Shown: positions 27,416 to 32,265 of the stretch, one piece after another
Layout: each line of letters opens with the position of its first letter
How positions within the stretch are numbered: the stretch's first letter is position 1
Assembly (NCBI GenBank): GCA_938084765.1
Contig: CALKFO010000019.1
Span: 1 to 41,423, forward strand
Source: Candidatus Bipolaricaulota bacterium
GTDB taxonomy: Bacteria > Bipolaricaulota > Bipolaricaulia > Bipolaricaulales > Bipolaricaulaceae
Length of the DNA: 41,423 bases
Direction of reading: 5' to 3'
Translations under genes and position numbers: made by a program
Notes under the pieces: model-generated
Seen by the model: only the letters and a program-made list of their open reading frames with translations
Databases searched by the model: none
What the model was told of the DNA's origin: nothing

Positions 27416-28713
27416 GCGACCCGTTCCTTTACGCCCCCGATGAGCGCGGCAGGCGTGGCCTCCTGGATCTCCACCTCCACCATTTCCCCCACCAGTTCGG
27501 GCCCGCCCGGCGCGAGCACGGTGCGGAAGTCCCGCGTTTTGCCCATCACCATCCCCTTTTCGGGAAGGTACTCCTCCACCAGGATCTCCACGGTGGTTCC
27601 CACCCGCTCCTTGTGGAGGGCGAGGGCGATGCGGCGGGTTAAGTCGAGCACCTCCTGGAGGCGGCGGGCTTTCTCCGCCGGGGAAATAGGGTCGCCGAAG
27701 GGCTCCGCCGGTGTATTGGGCCGCGGGGAGTACGCCGCCACATACACCGTGCCGAACCGCGCCTCCTCGATCAGGGATAGGGTTTCCTGGAAATCCCGCT
27801 CCTCCTCGCCCGGGAAGCCCACGATCACATCGGTGGTGATGTTCACCCCGGGCACCGCTCGGCGGATCTTTTCTACCAGGCGCAAAAAGCTCTCGCGGGT
27901 GTAGCCGCGGCGCATGGCTTTGAGGATCTTGTCGCTTCCGGACTGCACAGCCAAGTGCACGTGCTCGCAGATGTTCTCCTCCTCAGCAATGGCCGCGATG
28001 ACCTCGTCCGTCATGTAGGCGGGATGGGAACTGGTGAAGAAGACGCGGGGAATGGGGATCTTGCCGACCTCGCGCAGGAGGCGGGCGAAGTTCGTGCCGT
28101 CCCGCAGATCGAGGCCATAGGCGTCCACGTTTTGCCCCAGAAGGGTGACCTGTTTATAGCCCTGGTGCGCGAGCTCGCGCAGCTCCGCCAGGATCTCGGG
28201 AAGCGGGCGGGAGCGCAAGGGTCCGCGCACCTTGGGGATCACGCAATACGCACAGGCATGGGAGCAACCCTCGGCGATGGTCACGTAGGCCCAAAAGGAG
28301 CTCACGCGGCGCACGGGAAGCCGCTCGAGCTCCACCGGGTCGGGGAGGTAGGCGATGCGCTCCCCGCGGCGGGCCCGCTCGATGAGGTCGGGCAGGAACC
28401 GCAGCCCCACCGTGCCGAAGGCGAAGTCCGCGCCCCGGCAGATCTCCAGGATGGCCGCGCCCCGGCCCTGGGGCATGCATCCGCCCACCCCGATGAGGAG
28501 GGGCTTGTGCCTCTTCAGCCGACTCAGGTCCTGAACGCGGCTCACCACCTTGTCCTCGCTCTTTTGGCGGACCATGCAGGTGTTGAGAAGGACGATGTCG
28601 GCGTCCTCGGGCCGCTCGACAAGCGCGTAGCCAGCGGCCGTGAGAACGCCGGCGATCTCCTCGCTTTTGTGGTGGTTGAGCTGACACCCCCAGGTGAGCA
28701 CACAAACCCGCAT
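27412..28713 (-). CDS. miaB: tRNA-2-methylthio-N6-dimethylallyladenosine synthase (MiaB-type methylthiotransferase)
   Basis: 'VCVLTWGCQLNHHKSEEI', radical SAM 'AEGCSHACAYCVIPKVRGPLRSRP', 'DVIVGFPGEEERDFQETL', C-terminal TRAM-like segment. Confidence 0.9.
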   Translation of the reverse strand: MRVCVLTWGCQLNHHKSEEIAGVLTAAGYALVERPEDADIVLLNTCMVRQKSEDKVVSRVQDLSRLKRHKPLLIGVGGCMPQGRGAAILEICRGADFAFGTVGLRFLPDLIERARRGERIAYLPDPVELERLPVRRVSSFWAYVTIAEGCSHACAYCVIPKVRGPLRSRPLPEILAELRELAHQGYKQVTLLGQNVDAYGLDLRDGTNFARLLREVGKIPIPRVFFTSSHPAYMTDEVIAAIAEEENICEHVHLAVQSGSDKILKAMRRGYTRESFLRLVEKIRRAVPGVNITTDVIVGFPGEEERDFQETLSLIEEARFGTVYVAAYSPRPNTPAEPFGDPISPAEKARRLQEVLDLTRRIALALHKERVGTTVEILVEEYLPEKGMVMGKTRDFRTVLAPGGPELVGEMVEVEIQEATPAALIGGVKERVA

Positions 28714-28780: not shown

Positions 28781-31717
28781 GTGCGGACCCGACTGGACGC
28801 GTACCTCGTGCGTGAGATCCTCCCGCCTTTTTTCTTGTCCTTGCTGGCCTTTTTGGTGTTCATCAGCCTGGAGCTCGTGCTTTCCCTTTCCGACGCGGTT
28901 TTCGCCCGCGGGGTTTCGGCTGCCGCGCTCCTGCGCCTTTTGAGCTTCAAACTCCCCTACATCCTGACCCTGGCCGCGCCGGCAGGTGCCCTCCTCGCCA
29001 CCTTCCTGGCCCTGGCCCGCTTGGCCTCGGATCGGGAGCTCCTGGCCTTGCAAGCCCTCGGTTATTCCCTGCGCCGCATCCTCCTCCCCTTCCTGGGGTT
29101 CGGCCTGAGCGTGAGCGTCCTGTGCCTGGTGTTTTCGGAGCTCGTCGTTCCCGAAGCCGAGGCTCTCTATCGCCGCGAACTTCTCGCCATCCTGTACCGC
29201 AGCCCCACGCCCATGGTCCAGGAAAACGTGTTCTTTCGGGGCCCTCAGGGCGAACTGTTTTACGTGGACCGCTACACCGGGGCGAAGGTGGAGGGCGTGG
29301 TGGTGTACGACCTCTCGGGACGCCTTTTCCCCAAGAGCGCCTTCCCGGCCGTGGTCACGGCGAGGGAGGGCGTGCTGGAGCGGGGGGAGCTTCGGCTTCG
29401 CGAGGGCCGGGTGCTCCAGTTCGGCGCCGCCGGCGAGCTCACGGAGATCCTGGGCTTTGGGGAGCTGCGCCTGGAGGTGGGGGAAAAGCTGGAGGAGGCC
29501 GTGTTGGGCGGGCGCACCCCCAGCGAGATGTCCGCCCGGGAGTTGCGGGAGCGCATCGACCTTCTGCGGCAAAGCGGACATGATGTGCGGCACCTTTGGG
29601 TGGAGTACCACGGGAAGCTGGCCATCGCCGGCGCGGCTTTCGTGTTCGTCCTGTTTGGGGCGCCGTTGGGGGTGGTTTTGGGTCGGCGGGGCCGGGCCAC
29701 GGGCATGGTGGTGGGGTTCCTCCTGGCGGCCGGAGCCCAGGCCCTGTTCCTTTGGGCCCGCACCCTCGCCCGCCGGGGCCTCCTGCCGCCCTTCCTCGGC
29801 GGCTGGCTTCCCCACCTCGTCCTGGGGGCCTTGGGCGCCCTGCTCTGGGCCGGCGCGGATCGGCTGCGCTTTCGCGGGAGCGTCCTTTTCCTCCTGTGGG
29901 CGCTGAGCGTTGGGGGGCTCGCCGCCCCACCCTTCACCGAGCTCGCCGCGGAGGAGTTGGTGGTGGAGGCGGAGGGCCGCCATTGGCGTGCCCACCAGGT
30001 CCGCCTCGTCTTGGGCAGCTACACCCTCCAGGCCCACAAGGCGGAGTTCCGGGAGGAAGGGGGCTGGACGCTCCAGGCCGAAGGGGCTCGGGTGGAAACC
30101 GACGAGGGCTGGGTGGAGGCCCAGATCCTGTGGAGCCAGCTCTCCCCATCCGGGGAGATCACCCGAGCTGAGCTCCGGCGCTTCCAGGGTCAGGCCCGCT
30201 TTCTTGGGCCGGAAAAACCCGAGCTCCTCTTCTTTTCCGCCGAGCAGGGCGTGGTGGACCTGGACCAAGGGGAGATCACCCGCCTGTGGGGTACCCAGGT
30301 TCTCTTCACCACCTGCCCTTGCGTGGAAGGTGCGCCTTACCTCGTGCGGGCCGAGGAGTTCCTCCTTCTGCCCGAGCGGTGGCTATTGGTGCGGAACTTG
30401 CGGGTGGATTCCTTCGGCTACCCTGTGGTTTGGCTTCCTTTCTACGCGGCCCGGCTCGGTGAGGAGGGCATCCCCTTCCTGCCGGAGGTAGGCCGCACGG
30501 GATTGGGCTGGTTCCTGCGCTGGTCCATCCCCTGGTCGCCCTGGGAAGGGGCGGTGGGGGCCCTGGTGCTGACCTGGTTCCCCGAAGCTGGCCAGATCCA
30601 GCCCGGTCTCTCTGCGGCCTGGGAGGCGGGAAGCTTTTCCCTGAGCGCGGACCAGGGGTTTTTGCGGGTGAGGGGCCGGGTGGGGGGCGAGCCTTGGCAG
30701 GGCCAGGCCCGCTGGCGCGCGAACACCCTAACCCTCGATCTTTCGGGAAAGGTCCAGGGCTGGGACGTGAGCATCAGCGCGGGCACCGTGGAAAGCGGGA
30801 CAGGCAGGTATGTGCGGCGGCCTGAGCTCGCCCTTTCCCGCGCCCTTTCGGCCTGGGAGGGGGAGCTGCGGGTTCGCTTGGGGATCGGGCAGTTTCAGGA
30901 AGAGGGGAGACAAAGCTGGCGGGTTGGTCTAGGACTGAGCTGGGCGAGGACGATGTCCCTGGGCTTGGCCCAGCTCCGCCTGGCCTGGGAGGCCGGGCTG
31001 GATCAGTACATGGGGGCTGAGCGTCTGTATCTTGCGGCCAACCCCAGTTGGGCTTGGGGTGGGATCTCGTTGTGGACCCAACAGCGCCTCACCCTCGGGC
31101 GCTCCCCGTTCACGTTCGACGCCCTGCCCACCCAAAGCCAGATCGGCCTCACCTTGGGCACCCGCAGCCGGGGGTGGACCCAAAAACTCAGCCTGGGCTG
31201 GGACCTGCTGGGCCCGGCGCCCCTCCCCGCCTCCTGGAGCTTGAGCGGGCCTAATCTATCCCTGCAGGTTTCGGTTCGCCTTTTCCCAACCCTGGGGGTC
31301 CAGGCCCGGGCGCAATGGCGCGGCCGGGGGCCCAACTGGCTGGTGGAGGCCAGCGGAAGCTATACGGGGACCTGGCAGGACGTGCTCCTGCGCGGGACCT
31401 TCTCCGGGGAAGGGACGGACCTGGCGTGGGGCCTCCGTCTTTCTCCCTGGCCGTTGGCGCTGCGCCGCCTTTACCTGGATGCCAAGGGAGCCATCAGCCC
31501 GGAGTGGTCTTGGAGCGCGGTTTTTGAATACGATCTGACCTTCCGGAGCGTGGTCCAGGCGGAGGTGGGCCTCTTTCGCACCTTTGCCGGATGCTTGCGG
31601 CTGGGTCTGCGCCTGGGCCTGGGCACCTTCCGGTTGAGCTTGGATGTCCCAGCCTTTCCCGCGTTTTCCGTGACGTTCGCGCCCTTGGACGAGGGGCTGC
31701 GGGTGGGCGGGCTATAA
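28781..31717 (+). CDS. Fusion protein: LptF/LptG (YjgP/YjgQ)-type permease (about aa 1-360) plus OstA/LptD-like domain and predicted beta-barrel (about aa 382-978)
   Basis: N-terminus 'RLDAYLVREILPPFFLSLLAFLVFISLELVLSLSDAV...ASDRELLALQALGYSLRRILLPFLGFG' with LptF/G topology. The ORF continues without a stop into 'ITRLWGTQVLFTTCPCVEGAPYLVRAEEFLLLPERWLLVRNLRVDSFGYPVVWLPFYAARL', an LptD signature, then long amphipathic beta-strand-like sequence. Confidence 0.88.
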   Translation: MRTRLDAYLVREILPPFFLSLLAFLVFISLELVLSLSDAVFARGVSAAALLRLLSFKLPYILTLAAPAGALLATFLALARLASDRELLALQALGYSLRRILLPFLGFGLSVSVLCLVFSELVVPEAEALYRRELLAILYRSPTPMVQENVFFRGPQGELFYVDRYTGAKVEGVVVYDLSGRLFPKSAFPAVVTAREGVLERGELRLREGRVLQFGAAGELTEILGFGELRLEVGEKLEEAVLGGRTPSEMSARELRERIDLLRQSGHDVRHLWVEYHGKLAIAGAAFVFVLFGAPLGVVLGRRGRATGMVVGFLLAAGAQALFLWARTLARRGLLPPFLGGWLPHLVLGALGALLWAGADRLRFRGSVLFLLWALSVGGLAAPPFTELAAEELVVEAEGRHWRAHQVRLVLGSYTLQAHKAEFREEGGWTLQAEGARVETDEGWVEAQILWSQLSPSGEITRAELRRFQGQARFLGPEKPELLFFSAEQGVVDLDQGEITRLWGTQVLFTTCPCVEGAPYLVRAEEFLLLPERWLLVRNLRVDSFGYPVVWLPFYAARLGEEGIPFLPEVGRTGLGWFLRWSIPWSPWEGAVGALVLTWFPEAGQIQPGLSAAWEAGSFSLSADQGFLRVRGRVGGEPWQGQARWRANTLTLDLSGKVQGWDVSISAGTVESGTGRYVRRPELALSRALSAWEGELRVRLGIGQFQEEGRQSWRVGLGLSWARTMSLGLAQLRLAWEAGLDQYMGAERLYLAANPSWAWGGISLWTQQRLTLGRSPFTFDALPTQSQIGLTLGTRSRGWTQKLSLGWDLLGPAPLPASWSLSGPNLSLQVSVRLFPTLGVQARAQWRGRGPNWLVEASGSYTGTWQDVLLRGTFSGEGTDLAWGLRLSPWPLALRRLYLDAKGAISPEWSWSAVFEYDLTFRSVVQAEVGLFRTFAGCLRLGLRLGLGTFRLSLDVPAFPAFSVTFAPLDEGLRVGGL

Positions 31718-31725: not shown

Positions 31726-32265
31726 ATGAGCAAAAGGGAGCGCCTTCCGGATTGGCTGACGGCCAGCCGCGTTCTCATTGCCTTGGCCATTCTGGCCTTG
31801 ATCCCTGCGGGGCCGCAGGCCTTGGGCGTGGTGGCCGGCCTCCTCCTTTTGGGGTGGACCACGGACATGGTGGACGGCCGCCTGGCCCGCCGCTACGAAA
31901 AAGGGGCCACCTGGCTGGGCGAGCACGACTTTCAAATCGACATGCTCATGGTCCTCGCCTCCGCCGTGTTTTTGGTGAGCACCGGGCTTGTGCCCGCGGA
32001 GGTGGGTCTTCCCTACATCGTGACGGCGGTGCTCATCTCCCTGTACACCCTGCGCTACCGGCACTTCTTGAAGTTCAAGTCCGTGACCATGCTGTTGGCC
32101 TTTCCTTGGGTGTTCACGCCCTTCATCATCGCCCTTTTCCGTGAGCCGGCGGCGGCCTACGCTGGGCTGGTGTGGATGATCCTCGCCCTCATCCTGGACT
32201 GGCGCCGCTTCCTGGGCGTGGTGGGCGACTTCCTCGCCGGGGCCCGGGCCTACTTCCGCCGCTAA
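31726..32265 (+). CDS. CDP-alcohol phosphatidyltransferase family protein
   Basis: 'TTDMVDGRLARRYEKGATWLGEHDFQID' matches D-x2-D-G-x2-A-R-x8-[G]-x3-D-x3-D except at the G; polytopic. Confidence 0.88.
   Translation: MSKRERLPDWLTASRVLIALAILALIPAGPQALGVVAGLLLLGWTTDMVDGRLARRYEKGATWLGEHDFQIDMLMVLASAVFLVSTGLVPAEVGLPYIVTAVLISLYTLRYRHFLKFKSVTMLLAFPWVFTPFIIALFREPAAAYAGLVWMILALILDWRRFLGVVGDFLAGARAYFRR

Follow-up and report, generated by a model that had tools for sequence, protein, structure and literature searches.

A single gene in a Bipolaricaulota genome encodes, in one unbroken reading frame, an LptF/LptG-type permease of the inner membrane followed by an LptD-like protein, and this fusion is conserved across the phylum. 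We consider it likely, with a probability of about 0.7, that the product is an Lpt polyprotein, which signal peptidase I would cut into the subunit of an LptF/G homodimer and LptD. Each component falls in a known family; what is new is how they are arranged and the taxonomic context in which they occur. The initial annotation was aware of no described LptF/G–LptD fusion, and we likewise found none in the literature searched.

The fused gene and its distribution in Bipolaricaulota

The window, by which we mean the whole stretch of 41,423 nucleotides that was analysed (contig CALKFO010000019.1 of assembly GCA_938084765.1), carries the fused gene on its forward strand, where a frame of 978 residues runs from a GTG at 28781 to a stop at 31717; an alternative in-frame GTG start lies upstream at 28694. 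The features discussed below are as follows, with the evidence for each in brackets:

28781..31717, + strand: fused LptF/G–LptD gene (frame; PF03739; survey of same-frame fusions)
28802..29845, + strand: LptF/LptG permease domain, residues 8-355 (PF03739, E 4.7e-78; AF2; Foldseek to LptG)
29858..29926, + strand: junction, residues 360-382 (signal-peptide-like; free N-terminal signal peptide in a split relative)
29939..30310, + strand: LptD_N/LptA-like jellyroll, residues 387-510 (LptD_N in relatives; AF2)
30308..30322, + strand: TTCPC motif closing the jellyroll, residues 510-514 (family conservation; profile alignment to LptD 8h1r)
30485..31681, + strand: LptD-like β-barrel, residues about 569-967 (AF2; Foldseek to LptD)
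31592..31594, + strand: C938, a cysteine invariant in the family and close to the C-terminus (matched in the alignment with the LptD 'CCW' cysteines)
31726..32265, + strand: CDP-alcohol phosphatidyltransferase gene (PF01066, E 3.3e-10; synteny)

The first ~360 residues had been read as an LptF/LptG permease, and PF03739 (LptF_LptG) indeed matches residues 8-355, scoring 263 bits where the cut-off is 27.9. This half scores below the equivalog cut-offs of both LptF and LptG and is, therefore, neither F nor G specifically. In the AF2 model (pLDDT 83.8 for the whole chain), it comprises six membrane helices and a periplasmic jellyroll, a fold that Foldseek matches to LptG with a TM-score of up to 0.80 on the target. 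There is one LptF/G gene in the genome from which the window derives and, fragments aside, one per genome in the phylum; a distinct LptF plus LptG subunit pair was found neither in that genome nor in the phylum survey. Given that only one such gene was found, the permease is probably a homodimer.

The survey covered 100 genomes of the phylum Bipolaricaulota, of which 90 have the permease above cut-off and 91 the LptD half. Among the 90 permease-bearing genomes, the two halves are fused in the same frame in 81, cut by a contig end in six, encoded by adjacent genes in two and by distant loci in one. Thus, the single-frame fusion proposed in the initial annotation stands, and genuinely separate genes, which it had suggested looking for in related genomes, are confined to G043/G044 and G072. 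When genome contigs were scanned with the single sequence there were no matches; with the family alignment (26 fused relatives) as the query, 61 loci were recovered, and the few deltaproteobacterial and spirochaete loci among them match the permease half only. As a separate observation, five deltaproteobacterial or myxobacterial frames of about 760-810 aa (L124:4140-6467, L125:6866-9292, L128:2825-5104, L129:3310-5640 and L130:6908-9223) suggest a tandem fusion of LptF and LptG in one frame. Additionally, genomes G079-G082 (genus g34) and G040-G042 and G045 (family f2) are without LptF/G, the LptD half and a recognisable LptB, and retain Omp85; the whole export system has possibly been lost from them.

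The split relatives are of two kinds. In G072 (CP070725.1), the halves lie far apart, at L149:6793-8967 and L150:9487-10806, with no gap nearby: the LptF/G gene ends '...RRAVPFLGGLAAG*', stopping within the segment that matches the junction, and the LptD gene starts MRAIAAVAAVVCAVLAPVVLAADE..., thereby having its own N-terminal signal peptide. The permease tree places G072 within the clade of fused genes (support 0.989), indicating a secondary fission, and its permease keeps the ancestral neighbourhood beside a MiaB-like gene. In G043 and G044, an LptC-like gene, lptB, a single lptF/G and lptD are separate and adjacent (L048:115-5209 and L047:4788-10588, respectively). These two genomes adjoin Bipolaricaulaceae in the permease tree with weak support (0.80) and on a long branch, and their unfused state could be either ancestral or secondary.

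The junction and the fate of the chain

Beyond the final helix of the permease, the chain has a predicted cytoplasmic location; it continues with arginines and a short hydrophobic core and closes on an AxA-type end (DRLRFRG / SVLFLLWALSVGG / LAA). The junction, thus, has the character of a signal peptide with a positively charged n-region, and the same layout is seen in 67 sequences despite fast divergence. An [AGSTV]x[AGS] motif follows the junction core in 99% of these 67 sequences, as against 82% in shuffles; as alanine is common, this simple count is weak, and a signal-peptidase matrix and the junctions of the relatives were therefore added. The matrix, applied to alanine-rich sequence that yields AxA sites by chance, gives a median of 8.5 for the junction, 5.0 for shuffles and 3.0-7.9 for true helix ends. 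Among the relatives, many junctions end in textbook sites, including AFAQDE, VRAQE, IAHAQDP and AWAQE. Taken at the level of sequence, these features suggest, without being decisive, a retained LptD signal peptide, in which signal peptidase I would have its candidate cleavage site around residues 379-382. The strongest argument for this assignment comes from G072, in which the LptD gene has a signal peptide of its own.

The initial annotation allowed for one chain bridging the envelope or for a precursor that is later split; the fusion itself stands, and the junction and the split relative favour the latter. It is the combination of a signal-peptide-like junction and a separate LptD gene with its own signal peptide that leads us to prefer a polyprotein over an intact chain. 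The first ~358 residues are the sole LptF/G-type permease found, two copies of which would form a homodimer on LptB dimers. The chain would re-cross the inner membrane via a segment that retains the signal-peptide function of an ancestral LptD, and signal peptidase I would cut behind this segment, thus releasing the LptD half into the periplasm, from where BamA would insert it as an exit gate of the outer membrane. LptB would supply the energy with which the permease extracts a lipid, the LptC-like product of the gene next to lptB would help to span the periplasm, and delivery of the lipid to the outer leaflet would presumably fall to the LptD half. A precedent for a cleaved polyprotein is provided by fbcH of Bradyrhizobium japonicum, a cytochrome b/c1 polyprotein that joins a membrane protein to an exported protein and whose internal signal peptide is cleaved, although this is a respiratory complex and its proteins are unrelated to Lpt.

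The alternative that survives best is that the chain stays uncut, with the junction as a seventh transmembrane helix, such that one polypeptide would be anchored in the inner membrane while its barrel resides in the outer membrane. The frame is kept across the phylum, an internal translation start is lacking at the junction, and a similar topology, in which one chain sits in the inner membrane at one end and forms an outer-membrane β-barrel at the other, has been proposed for MlaD of Veillonella parvula (PMC10665443). MlaD, however, belongs to an MCE-family phospholipid system rather than to Lpt, and no signal-peptide-like junction has been argued for it, unlike the fusion described here. Moreover, sequence change has been much quicker at the junction than in the permease helices, TM3 aside (the pairwise identity is 26% for the h/c region of the junction, compared with 51-58% for five of the six helices and 35% for TM3), the junction has the layout of a signal peptide, and the halves are separate genes in G072 and G043/G044. 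The single jellyroll of ~125 aa that precedes the barrel also seems too short to span a normal periplasm. We, therefore, regard an uncut chain as unlikely, if still worth bearing in mind, and it is a little more doubtful that an intact chain would act as permease and barrel at once, tether both membranes and export a lipid other than LPS in a phylum that lacks LPS.

The LptD-like half and the weaker alternatives

The C-terminal half of the putative polyprotein is an LptD-like jellyroll followed by a large β-barrel, as assigned by fold and profile, in agreement with the OstA/LptD-like region read from the sequence at the outset. By itself, this half gave no significant family match, only noise, in Pfam and NCBIfam scans. 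Nevertheless, LptD_N matches nine of the 26 fused relatives (best 1.8e-6) and is above cut-off in 15 genomes, in 14 of them within the fused frame, with the window protein below. PF04453 has no match in the window protein, and all relatives scanned fall below its cut-off (best 17.0 bits versus 22.4). The family profile finds the solved LptD 8h1r with a weak 3.6e-4 (the C-half profile alone gives 0.011), in an alignment that matches up the cysteine regions. The landmarks of the C-half in the 26-member alignment are TTCxC, W.P, SPF.FD and a cysteine near the end; T510, T511, C512 and C938 are invariant, and C514 is nearly so. The pattern that had been quoted as LptD-type corresponds to the LptD cysteine and 'W.P' region. 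C512/C514 and C938 are the putative counterparts, by alignment, of the cysteines in the N-domain and at the barrel end of LptD, respectively, and may form a long-range disulfide.

The structural models agree with this assignment. Modelled alone, the C-half is a jellyroll and then a barrel (AF2 pLDDT 89.4), and its best 38 PDB matches in Foldseek are all LptD, with a best E of 1.2e-20 and modest TM-scores that reach at best 0.47 on the query. For the full chain, Foldseek returns LptD first, then LptG and LptF. The full-chain AF2 model runs from six permease helices and a jellyroll, through a low-confidence linker (residues 362-381; pLDDT <50), to a further jellyroll and the barrel; with a pTM of 0.44, it describes the halves themselves and not their relative placement, or whether one or two membranes are bridged. 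That the half could be an unrelated outer-membrane barrel would be in line with the window protein having no LptD Pfam match and with the PF04453 scores, but it is very improbable when set against the LptD_N matches in 15 genomes, the uniformly LptD structural neighbours, the cysteine positions that line up with LptD and the co-occurrence of LptB and LptC genes.

Slighter still is the chance that LptD is also made separately by ribosomes that initiate within the frame at the junction, in which case the fusion would be a read-through product: 13 of 42 junction windows do contain an in-frame ATG, but a start together with a Shine-Dalgarno-like site is seen in only 2 of the 42 (5%), below the 17% of control windows, and an internal start was rejected on these grounds. 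Finally, despite the window belonging to a fragmented draft of 129 contigs, an assembly or frameshift artefact near 29850-29940, for which the initial annotation had advised a check, is rejected by the survey with near certainty, since the fusion recurs with the same continuity and an alignable junction in 81 genomes, including the single-contig G004 and G005.

Partner genes, cargo and related systems

The initial annotation recognised no LptA, LptB or LptC in the window; LptB and an LptC-like gene are encoded elsewhere in the genome. The lptB gene (G000:C116:4192-4893) scores 268 bits with TIGR04406, against a cut-off of 240, and between it and pyrG, in the LptC slot, lies a gene (L133; G000:C116:4889-5494) whose product, of 201 aa, carries a signal peptide. 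No family model in Pfam or NCBIfam matches this protein, which we would call LptC-like by virtue of its position and sequence character; it may combine the roles of LptC and LptA, and no free LptA gene was recognised by PF03968. Across the phylum, LptB is above cut-off in 78 of the 100 genomes and missing from those without the permease, and lptB has an LptC-family gene as its neighbour, usually within a pyrG-lptC-lptB arrangement. Signal peptidase I and Omp85 are found in 82 and 88 of the genomes, respectively; both were missed in the window's own genome, which is 88% complete, and signal peptidase is present in all seven of its congeners.

In relation to the cargo, LpxC was found in none of the 100 genomes and LpxB in none above cut-off, so that the transported lipid is probably not ordinary LPS or lipid A; these counts bear on lipid A and not on other glycolipids, and the glycolipid cargo suggested in the initial annotation is hypothetical. 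The CDP-alcohol phosphatidyltransferase gene starts just 8 nt past the stop of the fusion, an adjacency that recurs in about 32 related loci, and the two genes are probably co-transcribed.

The system has in common with the Lpt machinery of Escherichia coli (LptB2FG-C-A-DE) the LptF/G permease fold, the LptB ATPase, an LptC-like gene beside lptB, and the LptD jellyroll and barrel with conserved cysteine positions. It differs in that LptF/G and LptD are encoded in one chain, in that a single permease gene takes the place of LptF plus LptG, and in the lack of LpxC, of LpxB above cut-off and of a free LptA by PF03968. Atypical diderms such as Thermotogae and Deinococcus-Thermus are LPS-less and have a reduced Lpt system, in which LptB and LptF/G are present, whereas lptD and lptE are reported never to be found (PMC8871954). 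Bipolaricaulota resemble them in possessing LptB and LptF/G, yet no LpxC-type LPS synthesis, but differ through an LptD-like half that is joined to the permease; its presence is at odds with the reported absence of LptD from such organisms. Similarly, no LPS-associated genes were reported for the Acetothermia genome Ran1, the first closed genome of the phylum, and its envelope type could not be decided (PMC6092417); an LptD-like protein is now placed in this same phylum.

An annotation that records only the permease domain conceals the outer-membrane half of such genes. The fusion also offers a clean test of how far the parts of a trans-envelope machine can be covalently joined. Overall, a machine for surface-lipid delivery persists in bacteria that have no known lipopolysaccharide genes, which suggests that the role of Lpt machines extends to other surface lipids, and that these machines may predate or outlive LPS.
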